Source: Rhodospirillales bacterium (GTDB lineage Bacteria; Pseudomonadota; Alphaproteobacteria; Rhodospirillales; JAPHRK01). Taken from it: 64,000 nt of DNA. The DNA lies in assembly GCA_026196105.1 (NCBI GenBank), contig JAPHRK010000011.1, positions 1 to 64,000 of the forward strand, read 5' to 3'. Below are positions 51,069 to 58,893 of this stretch, in pieces (the stretch's first letter is position 1; each line of letters starts with the position of its first letter). The notes below the pieces were generated by a model. The model searched no databases. It worked only from the letters and a program-made list of their open reading frames with translations, and had not been told where the DNA came from. The translations under genes were made by a program, and so were the position numbers.

Positions 51069-52223
51069 GTGTTTGTCAGTGGGTTTCGTCCCTTTTACTT
51101 CCTTGGGACCCTTTACGCACCTTTATTGGTGTTGATTTGGCTCGCTGAGTATTCTGGCTTGGCGGGCTTTTCTTCTTCTGAAATAAGCCTTTCTCAATGG
51201 CACGGTCACGAGATGCTCTTTGGCTTTGCCGCCGCCGTAATTAGTGGCTTTCTCCTCACAGCTCTACCTGGGTGGGCCGCCACTCCTGAAATTCATGGCG
51301 CAAAGCTTGCCTTCCTCAGTTTTCTTTGGTTAGCAGGGCGGGTCGTTTTTTGGTTTTCTGCTCAGTTGCCTTTGCCTTTAGTTGCCATTGTCGACTCGTC
51401 TCTTTTTCTTTTTATGGCTTTGTTTTTTGTGCCGGGTTTAAGACAAGCTAAGAGTAAACTTTACTGGGCGCTCATCCCAATATTGTTATGGTTTTTTGGC
51501 TGTAATGTGGCTTTCTATTGGGCTTTGGCTCAAGGGGCATCACACCAAGCCGACCAAGCATTGATGGCTAAAGTCTACGGCCTTATTTTGCTGTACAGTA
51601 TTGTCGCCGGAATACTGGTTCCGTCTTTCACGGAGACAGCTTTGAAAGCTAAAAAATGGCAAGGGCGTATGACCATTCTTCCCTGGTTGGAGTGGGCCGC
51701 TGTTGGTACGGCATTTGTCTATGGATTGACTGGATTACTGTACAAGGGAAGTGAATTTGCTATCTGGGCAGCACTCGTTGCTCTTGTTATTCACAGTTTT
51801 AGGTTTTCTAGGTGGAAGGGGCTTAAGGTCGCCGATACACCGATGGTCTTTATCCTCCATGTTGGGTACGCCTGGATGTTAGGGGCGTTTCTCCTTCGGG
51901 CCTTAGGGGATTATGGCCTTAACATCCCCGACATGTCCCATGTTCATGCTTATACAATAGGGGCGCTCGGGTTAATGAAAATTGGTTTAATGACTCGTGT
52001 CGCCCTGAAGCATACGGGCCGACCATTAAACCCAAGCAATCTGGTTTTGATGGCTTATGCCTTGATTTTCTTCGCTGCTTGCATCCGCCTTTACGCACCT
52101 TATTCAGCCGTTGAACCTGCTATGATGGGGTTGTCTTCTCTAGCTTGGGCTTTGGGCTTTGGCATCTACTTCTTCAGTTATGGTCGTTTGTTTCTCGTTC
52201 CTAGTTTGCCACGTAAGGGCTAA
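51069..52223 (+). CDS. NnrS family membrane protein
   Basis: A 384-residue, about 12-helix haem- and copper-containing type membrane protein. FRPFYFLGTLYAPL, SQWHGHEMLFGFAAAVISGFLLTALPGW and HVHAYTIGALGLMKIGLMTR match NnrS, which lessens nitric oxide stress on iron metabolism. GTG at 51069 comes just after an in-frame stop at 51060, so no longer start is possible. AAGGAG lies 15 bases upstream. It follows dctM by 45 bases and may be cotranscribed. Its stop overlaps the convergent gene by four bases. Confidence 0.9.
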   Translation: MFVSGFRPFYFLGTLYAPLLVLIWLAEYSGLAGFSSSEISLSQWHGHEMLFGFAAAVISGFLLTALPGWAATPEIHGAKLAFLSFLWLAGRVVFWFSAQLPLPLVAIVDSSLFLFMALFFVPGLRQAKSKLYWALIPILLWFFGCNVAFYWALAQGASHQADQALMAKVYGLILLYSIVAGILVPSFTETALKAKKWQGRMTILPWLEWAAVGTAFVYGLTGLLYKGSEFAIWAALVALVIHSFRFSRWKGLKVADTPMVFILHVGYAWMLGAFLLRALGDYGLNIPDMSHVHAYTIGALGLMKIGLMTRVALKHTGRPLNPSNLVLMAYALIFFAACIRLYAPYSAVEPAMMGLSSLAWALGFGIYFFSYGRLFLVPSLPRKG

Positions 52224-54487
52224 TCCATATCGAAGAAATCAAGGGTGGAAACAACAGAGAAGATCTCTGTTGTTCCTTCAATATAGACTCGTAAAACACC
52301 ATATTCTAAATCAGGAAAATTGCTGCGAATATCGTCAATTTCTCTAAGCTCAAAGACACTAATTTCTTTCGTGTCGGGATTTTGGCGGCGCCATTGGGCA
52401 ATTTTACTTATGTTGTTGCCCTTAAGTAAGGTTCTGACTTTGCGCTCAGAACTGAGGCTGGGGGAGCCGTAAAGTTTAGTGTAATGGGCAAGGAGTGTAA
52501 TGTAAGAGCCTCTTGGGAAGAGGGTGTAAAGCCGTGTAGCAACCTCTCCGTCAAATTGAATTAGCCCTTTTGCTCCCCGATAAACAACATTGCTGATATT
52601 GAAATGAGGCCTCAGATAACCATCCCAATTTGCTTTGACCATACAATAGTGTTTTGTCTTCTTGGCCTTGGCAACGCAGACGGGTTTTTGTTTACCTAAG
52701 ATATTTTGAATTGTCTCACCCAATAACAAGTTTGTCCCTAAGCCAATTTTAGCAGCCATAAATGCTGGTGATGCTTCGATAACAGATTCTGTGGCCGGTG
52801 GCAGGCTTGCCAGTTGGGAAAAATCAGCTTTCGTTAGAACAGGTGCTGCAGGAGGCTCTCCATCAGATTTATTGCCTGTTTCTTTCTCAGCCTCATCAGT
52901 AGCGATCAGTGTTTCCATGCTAGGGGGAGAGAACAAGTTAGTAATTCTATTCTTCATACGGTCAAAAAAGCCAGGGGTTGGCTCTGTTGGTGTTTCACGT
53001 TCTACGCTGACAATACGACTTGGCTCTTCAGCGGGGTTGGAGGCAGCTTTGGGTGATGGATTTAATTCTTCAACGGTTGGTTCTGTAATCGAGGGAGCTA
53101 CCGGTTTTTCAGTAAACCTAGGCTGAGGAATAGTAGGGGATGGTGCTTCTGGATGGAACGGAGAAGCTTTCTCTGTAACCAATGGCTTTGTTGACTCACT
53201 GTCTAACTTCTTTTGTGCTGGGGCATCAGGCTCTTCGTTTAGTATATCTTTGATGCCTTCAGAGAGCTTTGATAACAGTCCTGGTTGTTCTTGAGGAGCG
53301 GGTAGTTCTTCAACCACCTCTTTTTCAGCCTTTAATTGTTCAAGAGTTGTCAGGCGTTCTGTTGGCGCTATTTTGAGAGGCTCCGAAGGGACGCTCAACT
53401 GTGGTTTAGCACGTAACGGTTCAGTTTTTTCAGTCGGCGTTTTAGGGCGTACGGTTTTAAGTTCAACTGGTGCAGGTTTGGTAACAATCTTTTCTGGCAC
53501 TACTTCAGCAGGTTTTTCAGGTGTAGCTACAACAGAGTTAGGTTTAGGTGGCTCTTCTTTTAAGATACCTTGAAGTTTTGAAAGAAAGCTGGGTTTATCC
53601 TCTCCCACCTTGCTGGCAACCGCTTTAGGCTCTGTCTTTTTTGAAGGCTCAGGAGATAACTCAGGCTTGAGTTCAACAGATTTGGATTTAACCTTGATAG
53701 GTTCAGGATTCTCTGGGGCAATAGGCGGTTCTGCTTGTTTCAGAACTTCTTTGACGGTCTCAACTTTAACTTCGACCTTTTTGGGTTCAGGAATTTTGAG
53801 CTCAACTTTCGCTGGCTTTGGTTTTTCAGATGTGAAGAGGTTAGAAAGCTTGTTGCCAAGCTGTGAGAGGAAGTCAGGTTCTTCTTTTGTTGGCGCTGAG
53901 ATTGTCGCTAAATTTTTAGGAAGATCAGGCTTTAGCTCAGGTGCAACAATTTTTGTTTCAACAGGTTTAGGCTGTTCGGCTTTCACCTCAGCAGGTTTTT
54001 CTTCTGTTTTTACGGGGGCTGCCTCAATGCTTGGTTCAATTTTTGGCTCTACAACGGGTTTAACTTTTGTCTCGATTTTAACGGGGGTGCTTTCTTCAGG
54101 TTTAGATTTATTTGAGAAGAAATCAGTTAACCCATCTTTGAGGTTGCTGAAAACGCCTGGTTTATTGGCGGGCTCTACAGTTGGTTTTGTGAGCTTTGCA
54201 GGTGCAGGAACTGGTTTAGGCGGTAGAGCAATCTTAGGTGTTTCAATAACTGGAGGTGCCACTTGCGGCGTTAATTGAGGGATATCTGGAGTAACCATGG
54301 GGGCTGGTGCAGCAACAGGTGCTGTTGGGGCGTGGCCTAAAACGGGTGGAGCAGTCGGCGAAAGAGCATTGGGATCAAATGGATCTGGTCCAGCAGCTTG
54401 TGATGGGCTGTTAGCAATCAAGCTTGCCACTAAAACTGTTCCTGTAATAGTGATGATTTTACCAGTAAACGTCACGGTATTCCTCAA
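52220..54487 (-). CDS. Exported Pro/Lys/Glu-rich protein with five spaced amphipathic motifs
   Basis: A 755-residue protein I do not recognise. A signal peptide or anchor (about 8-32, ending SQAA) leads into a P/K/E/V-rich disordered body. Within it a motif of the form P-x-F/L-L/F-S-x-L/M-x-x-x-I/L-x-x-I/L-F/L occurs at about 110-124, 204-218, 299-309, 402-416 and 505-519, spaced 94-103 residues. From about 590 to 755 a folded basic domain follows (KANWDGYLRPHFN, GAKGLIQFDGEVATRLY, GVLRVYIEGTTEIF), with cysteines C604 and C615. It is divergent, with a 245-base gap, from the giant repeat protein. Could be an envelope scaffold; no function claimed. Confidence 0.75.
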   Translation of the reverse strand: MRNTVTFTGKIITITGTVLVASLIANSPSQAAGPDPFDPNALSPTAPPVLGHAPTAPVAAPAPMVTPDIPQLTPQVAPPVIETPKIALPPKPVPAPAKLTKPTVEPANKPGVFSNLKDGLTDFFSNKSKPEESTPVKIETKVKPVVEPKIEPSIEAAPVKTEEKPAEVKAEQPKPVETKIVAPELKPDLPKNLATISAPTKEEPDFLSQLGNKLSNLFTSEKPKPAKVELKIPEPKKVEVKVETVKEVLKQAEPPIAPENPEPIKVKSKSVELKPELSPEPSKKTEPKAVASKVGEDKPSFLSKLQGILKEEPPKPNSVVATPEKPAEVVPEKIVTKPAPVELKTVRPKTPTEKTEPLRAKPQLSVPSEPLKIAPTERLTTLEQLKAEKEVVEELPAPQEQPGLLSKLSEGIKDILNEEPDAPAQKKLDSESTKPLVTEKASPFHPEAPSPTIPQPRFTEKPVAPSITEPTVEELNPSPKAASNPAEEPSRIVSVERETPTEPTPGFFDRMKNRITNLFSPPSMETLIATDEAEKETGNKSDGEPPAAPVLTKADFSQLASLPPATESVIEASPAFMAAKIGLGTNLLLGETIQNILGKQKPVCVAKAKKTKHYCMVKANWDGYLRPHFNISNVVYRGAKGLIQFDGEVATRLYTLFPRGSYITLLAHYTKLYGSPSLSSERKVRTLLKGNNISKIAQWRRQNPDTKEISVFELREIDDIRSNFPDLEYGVLRVYIEGTTEIFSVVSTLDFFDMD

Positions 54488-54732
54488 TCTTTAACCCCAT
54501 TAAAATCATTCCCATCGTAAGGAAATTTAAACCCCTTGTAATCATTATAGATCAGTTGGGTAAAGAGGAGAACTCCCTCTTTGCTGAAAAGAATCGATTT
54601 TAAAGATAAAATGACCATGTATTAGGGCCATAGCCTCCTTAATGCGTGGTGTTATGGTTTCAGTGCAAACCGTGGTATATTGCGACCTGTAAGGATTTTT
54701 CCATAGAGTCGCTGTGCGAGGGGCAGTTAAAA

Positions 54733-57700
54733 ATGGTTAAAACAGATTCAGCTAAGGGTGATGGAGCTAAGCATCCAGTCGAATTGGCCGAGGTAAGTAA
54801 AATACCTATGGCAAATGGTTCGGAGAGCAAGAACACCAAACCGTCTGAAAGTGAGACAATTCCGTCTACTGCGGATGGTTCGCTCATTGGGCGCGACCAA
54901 TATACCCCTCCTTTCTATGTGCGCTATAAGCTCCTAACCCTCCTTGGTATTTCCCTCAGTGCCGGGTGGGTTTTGGCGGCTTACTCCTATGTGGAGCGTT
55001 CTCTAGGTTGGACAAACTTAGAAGAATTAATGTTACACGAAGTCGGTGGCCTTGCCGCTGGTATTGTGACTCCTTTGGCTTTGCTATGGTTGGTCATTGC
55101 TAACCTAGAACGAGGGCGGCAACTTCAAACCGAGGCCGCAGCCTTACGGTTTTATTTAGATCGATTAATTTATCCAACTGATGCTGCAGGTGACCGAGTG
55201 CGTGAAGTTACAGACTCCCTGCGCATTCAAGCTCGTGCTCTTACCGAAGCTTCAGAACGTGCTGCTGAGCGGGCTGTTCAAGTGGATGGAATGATTGAAA
55301 AACGAGCCAAAGCCCTTTCGAACGTTGCTGAACAAGCAGATCTTAAAGGTAAAGAAGTCGGAGAAGCTTTGCGCCGTCAGGCTGAAGATTTGGTTTTCGT
55401 TTCAGATCGGGCAATTTCCAAAGCCAGAGAAGCCGGAAATATTCTCCATCACCAATCCCATGATCTGATCAACGTCTCTCAACAGGCTTCTGCTAGAACG
55501 GAGAGCATTGCTGAGATTTTGCAAACCCGTGGGCAAGAGTTGATGCAGGTTGCTGATGACGCATCAGTAAAGGCAAAGGAAACCTCCGAGCTTTTCCGTG
55601 AGCGGACATCACAACTGCAAAATGTTGCTAAAGAATCCACCATCGAAGCTGAAAAGGTTGATTCTCTTCTTAGTAACCGTACTCAAAGTTTGATTAATGT
55701 TTCTGATGAGGCCCTAGACAAGGTTAAAGCGGGGGCCGACCTGATGCGTAGTCATTCAGAGGACCTCTCGAAACGAACAGAACGTGCATCAATCCAAGCG
55801 GACATTATGAGCGAGACCTTGCGCCGTCAAGCTGAAGACCTTGCTAGTATCGCCAAGCAAGTGAGCAAACAGACCTCAGAAATTGAAGCTAACCTGGGTC
55901 ACCAAAACCATACTCTGAATACTACCTCAGATAACGTGGCAGAGCGGGTTAAATTCATGAACCAGGCTCTTAAAGAACAGGCCAATGAGTTGCTTTCGAC
56001 CTCAGAAGAAGTTCTGCTTCGGGTTAGGAACACTGGTGAACAGTTTGATAAAAATAAAACTGAGATGTTTAGTGCTGCAGATGCAGCTGCTGATAAAACC
56101 GGAAAGGTTGGCAAGTCACTCTCCGGCGTTGCTGATAACCTGAATTCGGTATCTGGTGAAGTCTTGGACAAAGTCACTAAAGTAGGTGAAGTCTTAAAAG
56201 ATAACACCAAGGTTTTGGAAAACACGTCTGAAAGAGCCGTGGGCAGTGTCGATGTTGCTGGTGAGACCTTACGCCAACGTACAGACGAACTGGCGAAACT
56301 TTCAGATTTGGCTTCTACCCGAATGCGGACTGTCGGTGATATTCTTGATCATAATTCTCAATCACTGACCTCAGCCTCATCTAAAGCGACAGAAGATATT
56401 CGCAATGCTTCTGAAATTCTTCACGATAACACAAGGGCGCTCACGCAAGCCTCTAACACGGGTGCAGATGGAATTTCTGCAGTTTCAAAAGCTTTGGAAA
56501 GTGAGTTAGAGGTCGTTTCTAATGTTTCTGCCAAGGCAAAAGGTTATAGCGAAGATGTTCAGCGTAATTTATTAGATATTACTGAAACGTCTGAAACAGC
56601 TTCTGTTAAATTGCGAAATTATAGTGACTCGGTTCAAGTTCAAACAGAACGCCTTGGAGATGTTTCGACAAAAGCTGGCGACCATGTTCAAAATATGGCT
56701 GCTGTACTGAAAGAACAGTCGAGCAACCTTATAAAAGCTGGTGATACCGCAACATCACGTGTTGAAGAAGTTGGCCGCAGCCTTTCAACTCAAGCATCTA
56801 AACTTGCTGCGGTTTCTGAAGGTGTGGCTGACCGCCTTGAAGGAGTTGCAGGAAAACTCAAAGATCGTTCAGGCCAACTTACAACTGTTTCTGAAGTCAC
56901 CATGGCCCGGATGGATGACATCCTCCATAAATTGACTGAACAGTCTGAAGGGGTCTCTGGGGCAAGTGATCATGCTGTTGCTCAGGTTGATCGGGCGGGA
57001 GCTGCACTGCATCGTCATTCACGAGATATGACCACTGTCTCTGATCGTGCTGCAACCTTGATGGGGCTTGTGGCTGATGCCTTGCGTCGTCACTCAAGTG
57101 ATTTGGATGGAGCTTCTCAACTCGCCTCTGATAGAGTTTCCGCTGTTGGTATTGAACTAGAAAAACGTTCAGAGTCTCTGGCTCAAGCAACTGAAAAAGG
57201 AATTCGTGAATTAAGCGGCCTTGGGGATGCAATGGAAGATCGGGCTTCTGGTTTGACCTTCACCTCCGAGAAGCTCTCAACAAAAGTTGGTAGTATTATT
57301 GAAGAGTTGGGTGGGCATCTTGAAGAGCTTGAAAAATCCACCGAACAAGCCACAGGCAAACTGGAAGAAGTCGGGAAAACGGTTATTCTTCGGGCGCAAG
57401 ATGCTGAAACCATATCAGGACAAGCTCTTGGTCGATTGGATGAGGTTGGGAATGCTCTAGGGCGTCGTGTTGAACAAGTTGTTACGGCAACCAATCTGAC
57501 AGAAGAAAAACTTGTTAGTATTAGCACGATCTTGGACCAACGTTGTGCTGAGCTAGAACAAACATCCGCTGCGGCAAAGGGGCATATGAATGCTTTCTTT
57601 GAAACGTTGAAAGATCAAAAAACTGGTCTTGCCGATACTTCGGAACAGGCAACCGCGGAATTGGCTAAAGTAAGTGATAATTTGGCTGAGAGTTCTCGTG

Positions 57701-58893
57701 AGTTAACCTCTTCAGTCGACAAAGCAGCCGCTCTTATGTCCCTCGTCACAGATGGAATGCAACGCCAAGGGCAAGAAGTTTCAAATGCAGCCGAGTACAC
57801 CTCCGGTAAGGTCAACATGGTTGCTGATGCCTTAAATCGTAACCTTGAGAATTTAAGAAATGCATCGCAAAAAACCATCGAACATTTAGATCAATCTGGC
57901 CTTGGTGTTCGTGAGCGAATGAAAGGGCTTGCCGAGGATACAGATAAAGTAGCGTCCAAGATTGACCATGTTGCCAAATCTCTAGACCAGAGAAATTCTC
58001 AGCTTGGAGTTTCTACCAGCACAGCAATGGAAAAACTCAACCACGTTGGCGAGAGTTTGAGACAAAGAGCTGAAGATGCGGCTAATATTACCACTCAAAC
58101 GGTTTCAAGGCTGGCACATGCTGAAGAAATTATGCGTCGCCAGGCCCAAGCTACCAGCCGAGAAGGTGATGAAGTTTCGCAAAAACTTGAGATAAACACC
58201 TCTGCCCTGAAGCAAGAAATGCAAGATTTAACGACAACCTTTAACCGGGCTCTTGCAAGTATCAACGCTATTGGTGATGTTTTAGAAGAGAATAGCGATA
58301 AGGCAAACGGCTTGTCTGATCAAGCCGTAGCTCGAATTGAAAATGTCCAAAAAGCTTTGCACAAGAGCACAGATAATTTCTCAGAAACGGCGAATGCGAT
58401 TGCGGCACAAGGTAGTGATCTTTCAAAAACGCTTCAAGCTCATACCTCTGAATTGACCTCAGCTTCTCGGGATGCGGCTCGCTTGACCAAGGCTTTGAAA
58501 GAGCATCATGATAACGTTGGTGCAGAAGATTTCATGCGTACGTCATCTCTCATTCAAGAGAGCTTGCAGTCTATTGCTGTTGATATTACCCGTATTTTGG
58601 AAATTAGCATCACAGAGGATGATTGGAAGCGTTACACCAAAGGTGATAAAGGTATCTTTGTACGTAAGTTGGTTGGCTTTAGGGATAAAAATAAACTTCC
58701 GCTTATTAAACAAAAGTTTGAGAAAGACAGTGAATTCCGGGAGTATATTGACCGCTTCATTTTACAATATAATAACCTGCTATCAAAAGCAGCCCGAGGG
58801 GACCATAGTGGGGCTCTTACAGCTACCTTCCAAACCTCTGATGTGGGTAAACTACATACCCTGCTGAGCAAGGCTCTAGGACGGGAAGCTTAG
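54733..58893 (+). CDS. Giant two-TM protein with 44 tandem 25-residue helical repeats
   Basis: A 1386-residue protein of no family I can name. A polar tail (1-62) precedes TM1 (about 66-85) and TM2 (about 104-123); the LERGRQ after TM2 predicts a cytoplasmic body. Residues 163-1258 are 44 tandem units of 25 residues in exact register, except unit 19 with 21. Each begins with L/M/V/I/F, then hydrophobic residues near positions 8, 11, 15, 19 and 22, with S/T/A-D/E around 12-13 and V/A-G/A near 22-23. A distinct 128-residue C-terminal domain follows (TEDDWKRYTKGDKGIFVRKL). 25 residues over seven turns suits a continuous coiled coil. Start at 54733 follows GAGGGG; an earlier in-frame start adds 29 unlikely residues. 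Confidence 0.85.
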   Translation: MVKTDSAKGDGAKHPVELAEVSKIPMANGSESKNTKPSESETIPSTADGSLIGRDQYTPPFYVRYKLLTLLGISLSAGWVLAAYSYVERSLGWTNLEELMLHEVGGLAAGIVTPLALLWLVIANLERGRQLQTEAAALRFYLDRLIYPTDAAGDRVREVTDSLRIQARALTEASERAAERAVQVDGMIEKRAKALSNVAEQADLKGKEVGEALRRQAEDLVFVSDRAISKAREAGNILHHQSHDLINVSQQASARTESIAEILQTRGQELMQVADDASVKAKETSELFRERTSQLQNVAKESTIEAEKVDSLLSNRTQSLINVSDEALDKVKAGADLMRSHSEDLSKRTERASIQADIMSETLRRQAEDLASIAKQVSKQTSEIEANLGHQNHTLNTTSDNVAERVKFMNQALKEQANELLSTSEEVLLRVRNTGEQFDKNKTEMFSAADAAADKTGKVGKSLSGVADNLNSVSGEVLDKVTKVGEVLKDNTKVLENTSERAVGSVDVAGETLRQRTDELAKLSDLASTRMRTVGDILDHNSQSLTSASSKATEDIRNASEILHDNTRALTQASNTGADGISAVSKALESELEVVSNVSAKAKGYSEDVQRNLLDITETSETASVKLRNYSDSVQVQTERLGDVSTKAGDHVQNMAAVLKEQSSNLIKAGDTATSRVEEVGRSLSTQASKLAAVSEGVADRLEGVAGKLKDRSGQLTTVSEVTMARMDDILHKLTEQSEGVSGASDHAVAQVDRAGAALHRHSRDMTTVSDRAATLMGLVADALRRHSSDLDGASQLASDRVSAVGIELEKRSESLAQATEKGIRELSGLGDAMEDRASGLTFTSEKLSTKVGSIIEELGGHLEELEKSTEQATGKLEEVGKTVILRAQDAETISGQALGRLDEVGNALGRRVEQVVTATNLTEEKLVSISTILDQRCAELEQTSAAAKGHMNAFFETLKDQKTGLADTSEQATAELAKVSDNLAESSRELTSSVDKAAALMSLVTDGMQRQGQEVSNAAEYTSGKVNMVADALNRNLENLRNASQKTIEHLDQSGLGVRERMKGLAEDTDKVASKIDHVAKSLDQRNSQLGVSTSTAMEKLNHVGESLRQRAEDAANITTQTVSRLAHAEEIMRRQAQATSREGDEVSQKLEINTSALKQEMQDLTTTFNRALASINAIGDVLEENSDKANGLSDQAVARIENVQKALHKSTDNFSETANAIAAQGSDLSKTLQAHTSELTSASRDAARLTKALKEHHDNVGAEDFMRTSSLIQESLQSIAVDITRILEISITEDDWKRYTKGDKGIFVRKLVGFRDKNKLPLIKQKFEKDSEFREYIDRFILQYNNLLSKAARGDHSGALTATFQTSDVGKLHTLLSKALGREA
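55219..58506 (+). repeat. 75-base coding repeat array (44 units of 25 codons)
   Basis: The units are diverged at DNA level (no long identical runs seen), but the protein register is kept without gaps except for one four-codon deletion in unit 19. This shows selection for length phase rather than recent duplication. Confidence 0.85.

Follow-up and report, generated by a model that had tools for sequence, protein, structure and literature searches.

What kind of protein places more than a thousand residues of in-register repeats between a membrane anchor and a folded domain, and what would keep it that long? The question is raised by an open reading frame at positions 54733 to 58893 (plus strand) of a 64,000-nucleotide stretch of Rhodospirillales bacterium DNA (assembly GCA_026196105.1, contig JAPHRK010000011.1, positions 1 to 64,000), which we refer to as the window. 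GPR, RgsE and TipN proteins help decide where alphaproteobacteria build poles, and the size of GPR has previously been tied to apolipoprotein-like lipid binding. Sequence comparison places the window protein in the GPR/RgsE family by both of its end domains, and we propose that it is probably a polar scaffold of the cytoplasm, anchored in the membrane and bearing a coiled-coil rod of constrained length, the form that the family takes in Rhodospirillales.

Both End Domains Match RgsE

Among plasmid records we found a homologue in Sinorhizobium meliloti Ak57, a 2,089-residue protein annotated 'kinesin' (LZK74_25975, record L072; tblastn E 5e-18 for the C-terminal domain), which is taken to be RgsE (SMc00190), its length equaling the 2,089 residues published for that protein (PMC7327166). 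The C-terminal domain of the window protein aligns to it with an hhalign probability of 99.8% (E 1.2e-28, 36% identity over 116 columns), and the transmembrane (TM) domain is recovered both by hhalign (E 1.1e-6, probability 91%, 27% over 90 columns) and by hmmsearch (E 7e-7). With its C-terminal domain, its pair of TM helices and its very long helical middle, the window protein carries the sequence features by which the GPR/RgsE end-domain family is recognized, and the profile matches at both ends show that it belongs there; the initial annotation had assigned it to no named family, a view overturned by these matches to RgsE, itself the GPR homologue. It is important to note that the link to GPR runs through the RgsE sequence, RgsE and the Agrobacterium protein being homologues with 42% identity, and that distant RgsE homologues have already been reported in Rhodospirillales and Emcibacterales by Krol et al. 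in 2020 (PMC7327166).

The reading frame, from its ATG at 54733 to the stop codon ending at 58893, and its surroundings resolve into the following features, all on the plus strand:

54733–58893, plus strand: coding sequence of a GPR/RgsE-family membrane-anchored rod protein of 1386 amino acids (open reading frame; homologues)
54718–54723, plus strand: likely ribosome-binding site GAGGGG, nine bases before ATG 54733 (direct reading of the sequence)
54733–54918, plus strand: N-terminal tail, residues 1–62, poorly conserved, predicted cytoplasmic (alignment; charges)
54916–55302, plus strand: conserved TM domain and rod start, residues 62–190, matching S. meliloti RgsE (profile comparison)
54931–54987, plus strand: TM helix 1, residues 67–85 (hydropathy; helix in the AlphaFold model)
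54988–55041, plus strand: short acidic loop, predicted periplasmic, residues 86–103, with L-x-PHE in relatives (alignment; charges)
55042–55098, plus strand: TM helix 2, residues 104–122, with a conserved TP (hydropathy; alignment)
55180–58494, plus strand: helical rod, residues ~150–1254, 25-residue period (periodicity; profile phase)
56569–56631, plus strand: single register slip, a 21-residue unit, residues 613–633 (profile phase; unit listing)
58495–58890, plus strand: conserved C-terminal domain of 132 residues (1255–1386), predicted all-helical (alignment; AlphaFold)

The two N-terminal TM helices and the folded C-terminal domain had both been anticipated by the initial annotation, which gave the latter 128 residues: the former coincide with the hydropathy segments at residues 67–85 and 104–122, and the latter, 132 residues by alignment, yields an all-helical AlphaFold model of seven helices with a predicted local distance difference test score (pLDDT) of 84. 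The helix that follows the TM pair ends at a conserved YP (residues 147–148), after which the rod begins. Comparison of the C-terminal profile with PDB sequences returned nothing below E 0.1, Foldseek with the C-terminal model gave no match below 1e-3, and VIA-align reached a best Z of 6.8, to generic helical bundles only; for a small helical domain with no convincing PDB match we therefore neither assign a fold nor claim a new one. Scans of the window for tRNA genes and Rfam families gave no match.

A homologue is present in 49 of 60 genomes of Rhodospirillales, the best of them 30–36% identical from end to end, and most of the order carries one core-type gene per genome; a cultured relative, Magnetovibrio blakemorei MV-1, also has a homologue. 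Of 289 alphaproteobacterial genomes, 105 encode the C-terminal domain, and in a phylum-wide sample of 249 genomes 59 do, all of them Alphaproteobacteria, with no occurrence in the sampled genomes outside that class. The open reading frames that contain it span ~330 to ~2,870 amino acids.

The Rod Repeats Every 25 Residues and Keeps Its Length

Over residues 163–1258 the autocorrelation of hydropathy reaches 0.53, 0.51 and 0.54 at lags of 25, 50 and 75, against a best lag in 200 shuffles of 0.12 (single residues), 0.13 (7-residue blocks) or 0.15 (11-residue blocks), and the Fourier spectrum peaks at 3.570 residues, that is 25/7 (power 155), the next strongest peaks being harmonics of 25. Both results bear out the early proposal of 25 residues per seven helical turns held in register, and the consensus unit, LxxQxxxLxxVSxxAxxKVxxVGxx, is hydrophobic at the proposed positions 1, 8, 11, 15, 19 and 22 (and at 25). 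The spacing of the resulting stripe, 7/3/4/4/3/4 with leucine at positions 1 and 8, resembles a coiled-coil core. A profile trained on units 1–18 only and then applied to the remaining rod keeps a phase offset of 0 over residues ~133–600, moves to +4 over ~603–1225 and then fades; the single four-residue slip foreseen in the initial annotation corresponds to a 21-residue unit, residues 613–633, made of three heptads instead of 25 residues and followed by a unit that starts at V634. The count of 44 units between residues 163 and 1258 likewise stands nearly to the residue as regards register, except that the rod starts earlier (~150) and that its last one or two units are degenerate. It is this 25-residue rod that is new, a 25/7 period not having been noted for the GPR/RgsE family in the literature examined.

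To compare rods independently of any repeat alignment, we define their length as the distance between the two anchor domains. By this measure, 19 distinct Rhodospirillales proteins share a rod length of exactly 1,064 residues. Aligned without gaps, they are pairwise 30.5% identical at the median and 22.5% at the lowest, and 13 lineages are less than 50% identical. Mean identity is 30.6% at shift 0, drops to ~19–20% at shifts of 25–75 and lies at 6–11% out of phase, so that unit n matches unit n, and on balance the 1,064-residue rods have neither gained nor lost units. Other Rhodospirillales rods differ from this length by -7, +7, +11, +44, +55, +200 (8 × 25) or -171 (6 × 25 + 21) residues, most insertions and deletions being whole heptads, hendecads or units, while one is of -1 and some larger ones are unexplained; in a pair of sister proteins (L095 and L100) a single 171-residue deletion near the slip equals in length six 25-residue units plus the 21-residue unit. 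Fixed lengths recur in other clades: 15 proteins, as little as 25% identical, share a rod of 654 residues, three share one of 774, and three of one clade share one of 893. Proline is absent from the rod of the window protein (residues 163–1258) and of 19 homologues, 20 of 20 in all. Such constancy of length together with the lack of proline would fit a coiled coil that is mechanically continuous and whose length is under selection, for which the arms of SMC proteins offer a precedent (PMC5344682).

In a separate observation on clade assignment, seven metagenome-assembled contigs titled 'Candidatus Marinimicrobia' encode nearly the same 654-residue-rod protein as metagenome-assembled genomes of Rhodospirillaceae, so these titles are probably wrong.

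A Probable Polar Scaffold and Its Alternatives

How might such a protein work? The two-helix hairpin would anchor it in the inner membrane, with almost its entire mass on the cytoplasmic side. Since the repeats give a hydrophobic stripe once every seven turns of the helix, the most likely arrangement is a long coiled coil between copies of the protein, with just a slight left-handed twist; we infer this oligomeric state from the stripe and action at a fixed distance from the conservation of length, and we also infer an extended shape and a continuous helix. Fully extended (1,064–1,096 residues at 0.1485 nm), the rod would measure ~160 nm and would keep the C-terminal domain, a probable partner-binding module, at a constant distance from the membrane, up to ~160 nm from the anchor. 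For the cellular setting we draw on the characterized members of the family: RgsE is a cytoplasmic, membrane-anchored protein of the growing pole that interacts with TolQ, RgsA and RgsS (PMC7327166), GPR, held in the membrane by two TM helices near its N terminus and dependent on its C terminus for function, makes up a 200-nm ring at the growth pole (PMC8262873), and loss of either protein, both of which localize to the new or growing pole, alters cell shape (PMC8262873, PMC7327166). By analogy, the window protein would be predicted to localize to the division site or the new pole and may there organize envelope and polarity proteins, with TolQ as the obvious first candidate partner. MreB and PopZ are both encoded in the same genome, which makes a TipN-like role as a pole landmark likelier than MreB-independent polar growth.

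We extend this proposal only tentatively to a true molecular ruler, as the initial annotation had ventured, an idea that the conservation of length supports without proving. Here an unbroken ~160-nm 25/7 coiled coil, its length selected to the residue, would keep the C-terminal domain a set distance away from the membrane of the new pole, and the family as a whole would be a toolkit in which fixed ends are combined with clade-specific rod lengths (~70–2,350 residues) and clade-specific periodicities that set the reach of a polar scaffold.

Several observations weigh against the polar-scaffold proposal. Krol et al. detected no other Rgs proteins in Rhodospirillales (PMC7327166), so the partner network must differ; the rod is unlike that of RgsE/GPR in both period (25 vs. 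11/22) and length (~1,064 vs. ~1,710 residues), so functional details may not carry over; and the genes adjoining that of the window protein (a TRAP transporter, NnrS and KorAB) give no hint of function. Finally, the AlphaFold model of residues 62–700, helical almost throughout, has a low pLDDT of 57.

The bends of this model at residues ~250, 430 and 576, like the glycine found in some units, often at position 23, would suit a rod that folds back into antiparallel bundles of the spectrin or apolipoprotein kind, forming a compact stalk whose constant length comes from bundle packing. We consider this arrangement unlikely. The bends fall in the least certain parts of the model (pLDDT <50), AlphaFold is described as bending coiled coils spuriously (PMC11676326), and the low pLDDT of the model led us not to use it for the overall shape of the rod; moreover, the surface pattern is alike in every unit, with no periodic loop-like unit, and the rods of all 20 proteins are free of proline.

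An amphipathic helix lying along the membrane and binding lipid, as proposed for GPR from its similarity to apolipoproteins, would account for the narrow hydrophobic stripe along the whole rod and draws on the strong match of RgsE to PF01442, the 'apolipoprotein' family (257.8 bits, E 7.6e-77). The window protein, in contrast, scores 20 bits against the gathering cut-off of 90 and falls outside the apolipoprotein A1/A4/E family, the Magnetovibrio homologue gives no PF01442 match, and the stripe has the spacing and leucines of a coiled coil. RgsE earns its label because its rod has an 11/22-residue period, and in a tree of the C-terminal domain such hendecad rods form one clade (support 100/91), while 25-residue rods occur in most other lineages and a third set is intermediate; this tree is midpoint-rooted, rests on 132 columns and contains some very long branches, so it does not establish the direction of rod change. 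By these sequence comparisons, the apolipoprotein similarity of GPR is a property of one clade's rod and not of the whole family, lipid binding cannot on that ground be a function shared by the family, and for the window protein we regard it as improbable. As a side observation, the ends can exist without a rod: in one alphaproteobacterial family (f53; records L162 and L163, and also L066 and L067) both end domains sit in compact proteins of 330–377 amino acids, the two best-checked of which have almost no rod and no 25-residue periodicity. As a related observation, genomes G003/G049 and G029 encode a second, shorter protein (~414–519 amino acids; records L070 and L071) with the same TM domain and no clear long rod.

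A stator-tail or defense protein such as ZorA of Zorya, in which a membrane motor sends a long helical tail into the cytoplasm, is suggested by a weak NCBIfam match over residues 846–1078 (E 4e-4) and is highly improbable, given that this match covers coil and not the motor domain (18.7 bits vs. a cut-off of 190), that no MotA/TolQ/ExbB domain appears among Pfam matches up to E = 1, that neither ZorB nor another partner is seen in the adjoining genes, and that most of Rhodospirillales keeps one core-type gene per genome.

Sub-threshold Pfam and NCBIfam matches of the whole protein to Mce, ZorA, SMC and DUF1664 were rejected as coil similarity; in the case of SMC, no ATPase head occurs among the Pfam matches and the NCBIfam match covers coil only. 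A PHROGs search returned nothing.

Genomic Context

Comparison of gene neighborhoods identified no partner conserved around the window gene. Its relatives lie mostly among metabolic genes (tetrapyrrole, heme, cytochrome bc1) that depend on the clade and were named from annotation or by eye, and the Ak57 RgsE gene adjoins those of the cytochrome bc1 complex. The 3.7-Mb Ak57 record itself (L072, CP090106.1) is labeled plasmid pSymB; with RgsE, folP and the cytochrome bc1 genes on board, it resembles a chromosome that was deposited under a plasmid label. In Sinorhizobium and Sphingomonas, a gene for a single-domain Hpt phosphotransfer protein (L072, 3087–3455, minus strand; L073, 2664–2957, minus strand; L063) lies immediately upstream of the homologue and divergent from it; no such gene is seen beside the window gene.

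The divergent neighbor in the window (52220–54487, minus strand) encodes 755 amino acids rich in proline, lysine and glutamate. A low-complexity stretch of this protein contains some five short amphipathic motifs (e.g., FLSQLGNKLSNLFTSEKPKP, FLSKLQGILKEEPPKP and GLLSKLSEGIKDILNEEP), and its C-terminal region comprises ~150 residues. The protein has no Pfam or NCBIfam match and is matched in 25 of the 40 genomes searched, its own included, mostly through the C-terminal region.

Significance and Comparison with Known Systems

Together, these results point to the apolipoprotein similarity as a side effect of the hendecad rod that a single clade has and to the two ends as the conserved parts of the family, while in Rhodospirillales the length of the rod has been kept to the residue over deep divergence. 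The hypothesis that results is that reach or register, and not lipid binding, explains the rod, and cultured Magnetovibrio blakemorei carries a homologue.

The nearest known relative, RgsE, has a homologous TM hairpin, a long helical rod and a C-terminal domain in the same order. It differs in its total length of 2,089 residues with a rod of ~1,710 (vs. 1,064 in the window protein), in a rod period of 3.654 residues per turn (lags 11 and 22) as opposed to 3.570, in the 18 prolines between its anchors where the window rod has none, and in its gene neighbors. GPR of A. tumefaciens (Atu1348) similarly combines two N-terminal TM helices with a giant helical cytoplasmic region and an essential C terminus, and is distinguished by its 2,115 residues, its repeats resembling apolipoproteins and a stretch rich in proline close to the C terminus (PMC8262873); the proline-rich, low-complexity linker before the C terminus that marks the Rhizobiales GPR/RgsE subtype is absent from the window protein. 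TipN of Caulobacter crescentus is likened to GPR by literature statements only, being listed as analogous to it (PMC13170164) while GPR is called similar to TipN (PMC8546619); at 882 residues (PMC13170164) it would have a much shorter rod, and TipN-sized proteins of ~880 residues with both end domains do exist within Alphaproteobacteria (L165). SMC arms, lastly, are a mechanical analogue and not a relative: the window protein is membrane-anchored, has a 25-residue period and is without SMC head or hinge, and what the two share is a long coiled coil, which in SMC proteins comes in discrete classes of natural length for functional reasons (PMC5344682).

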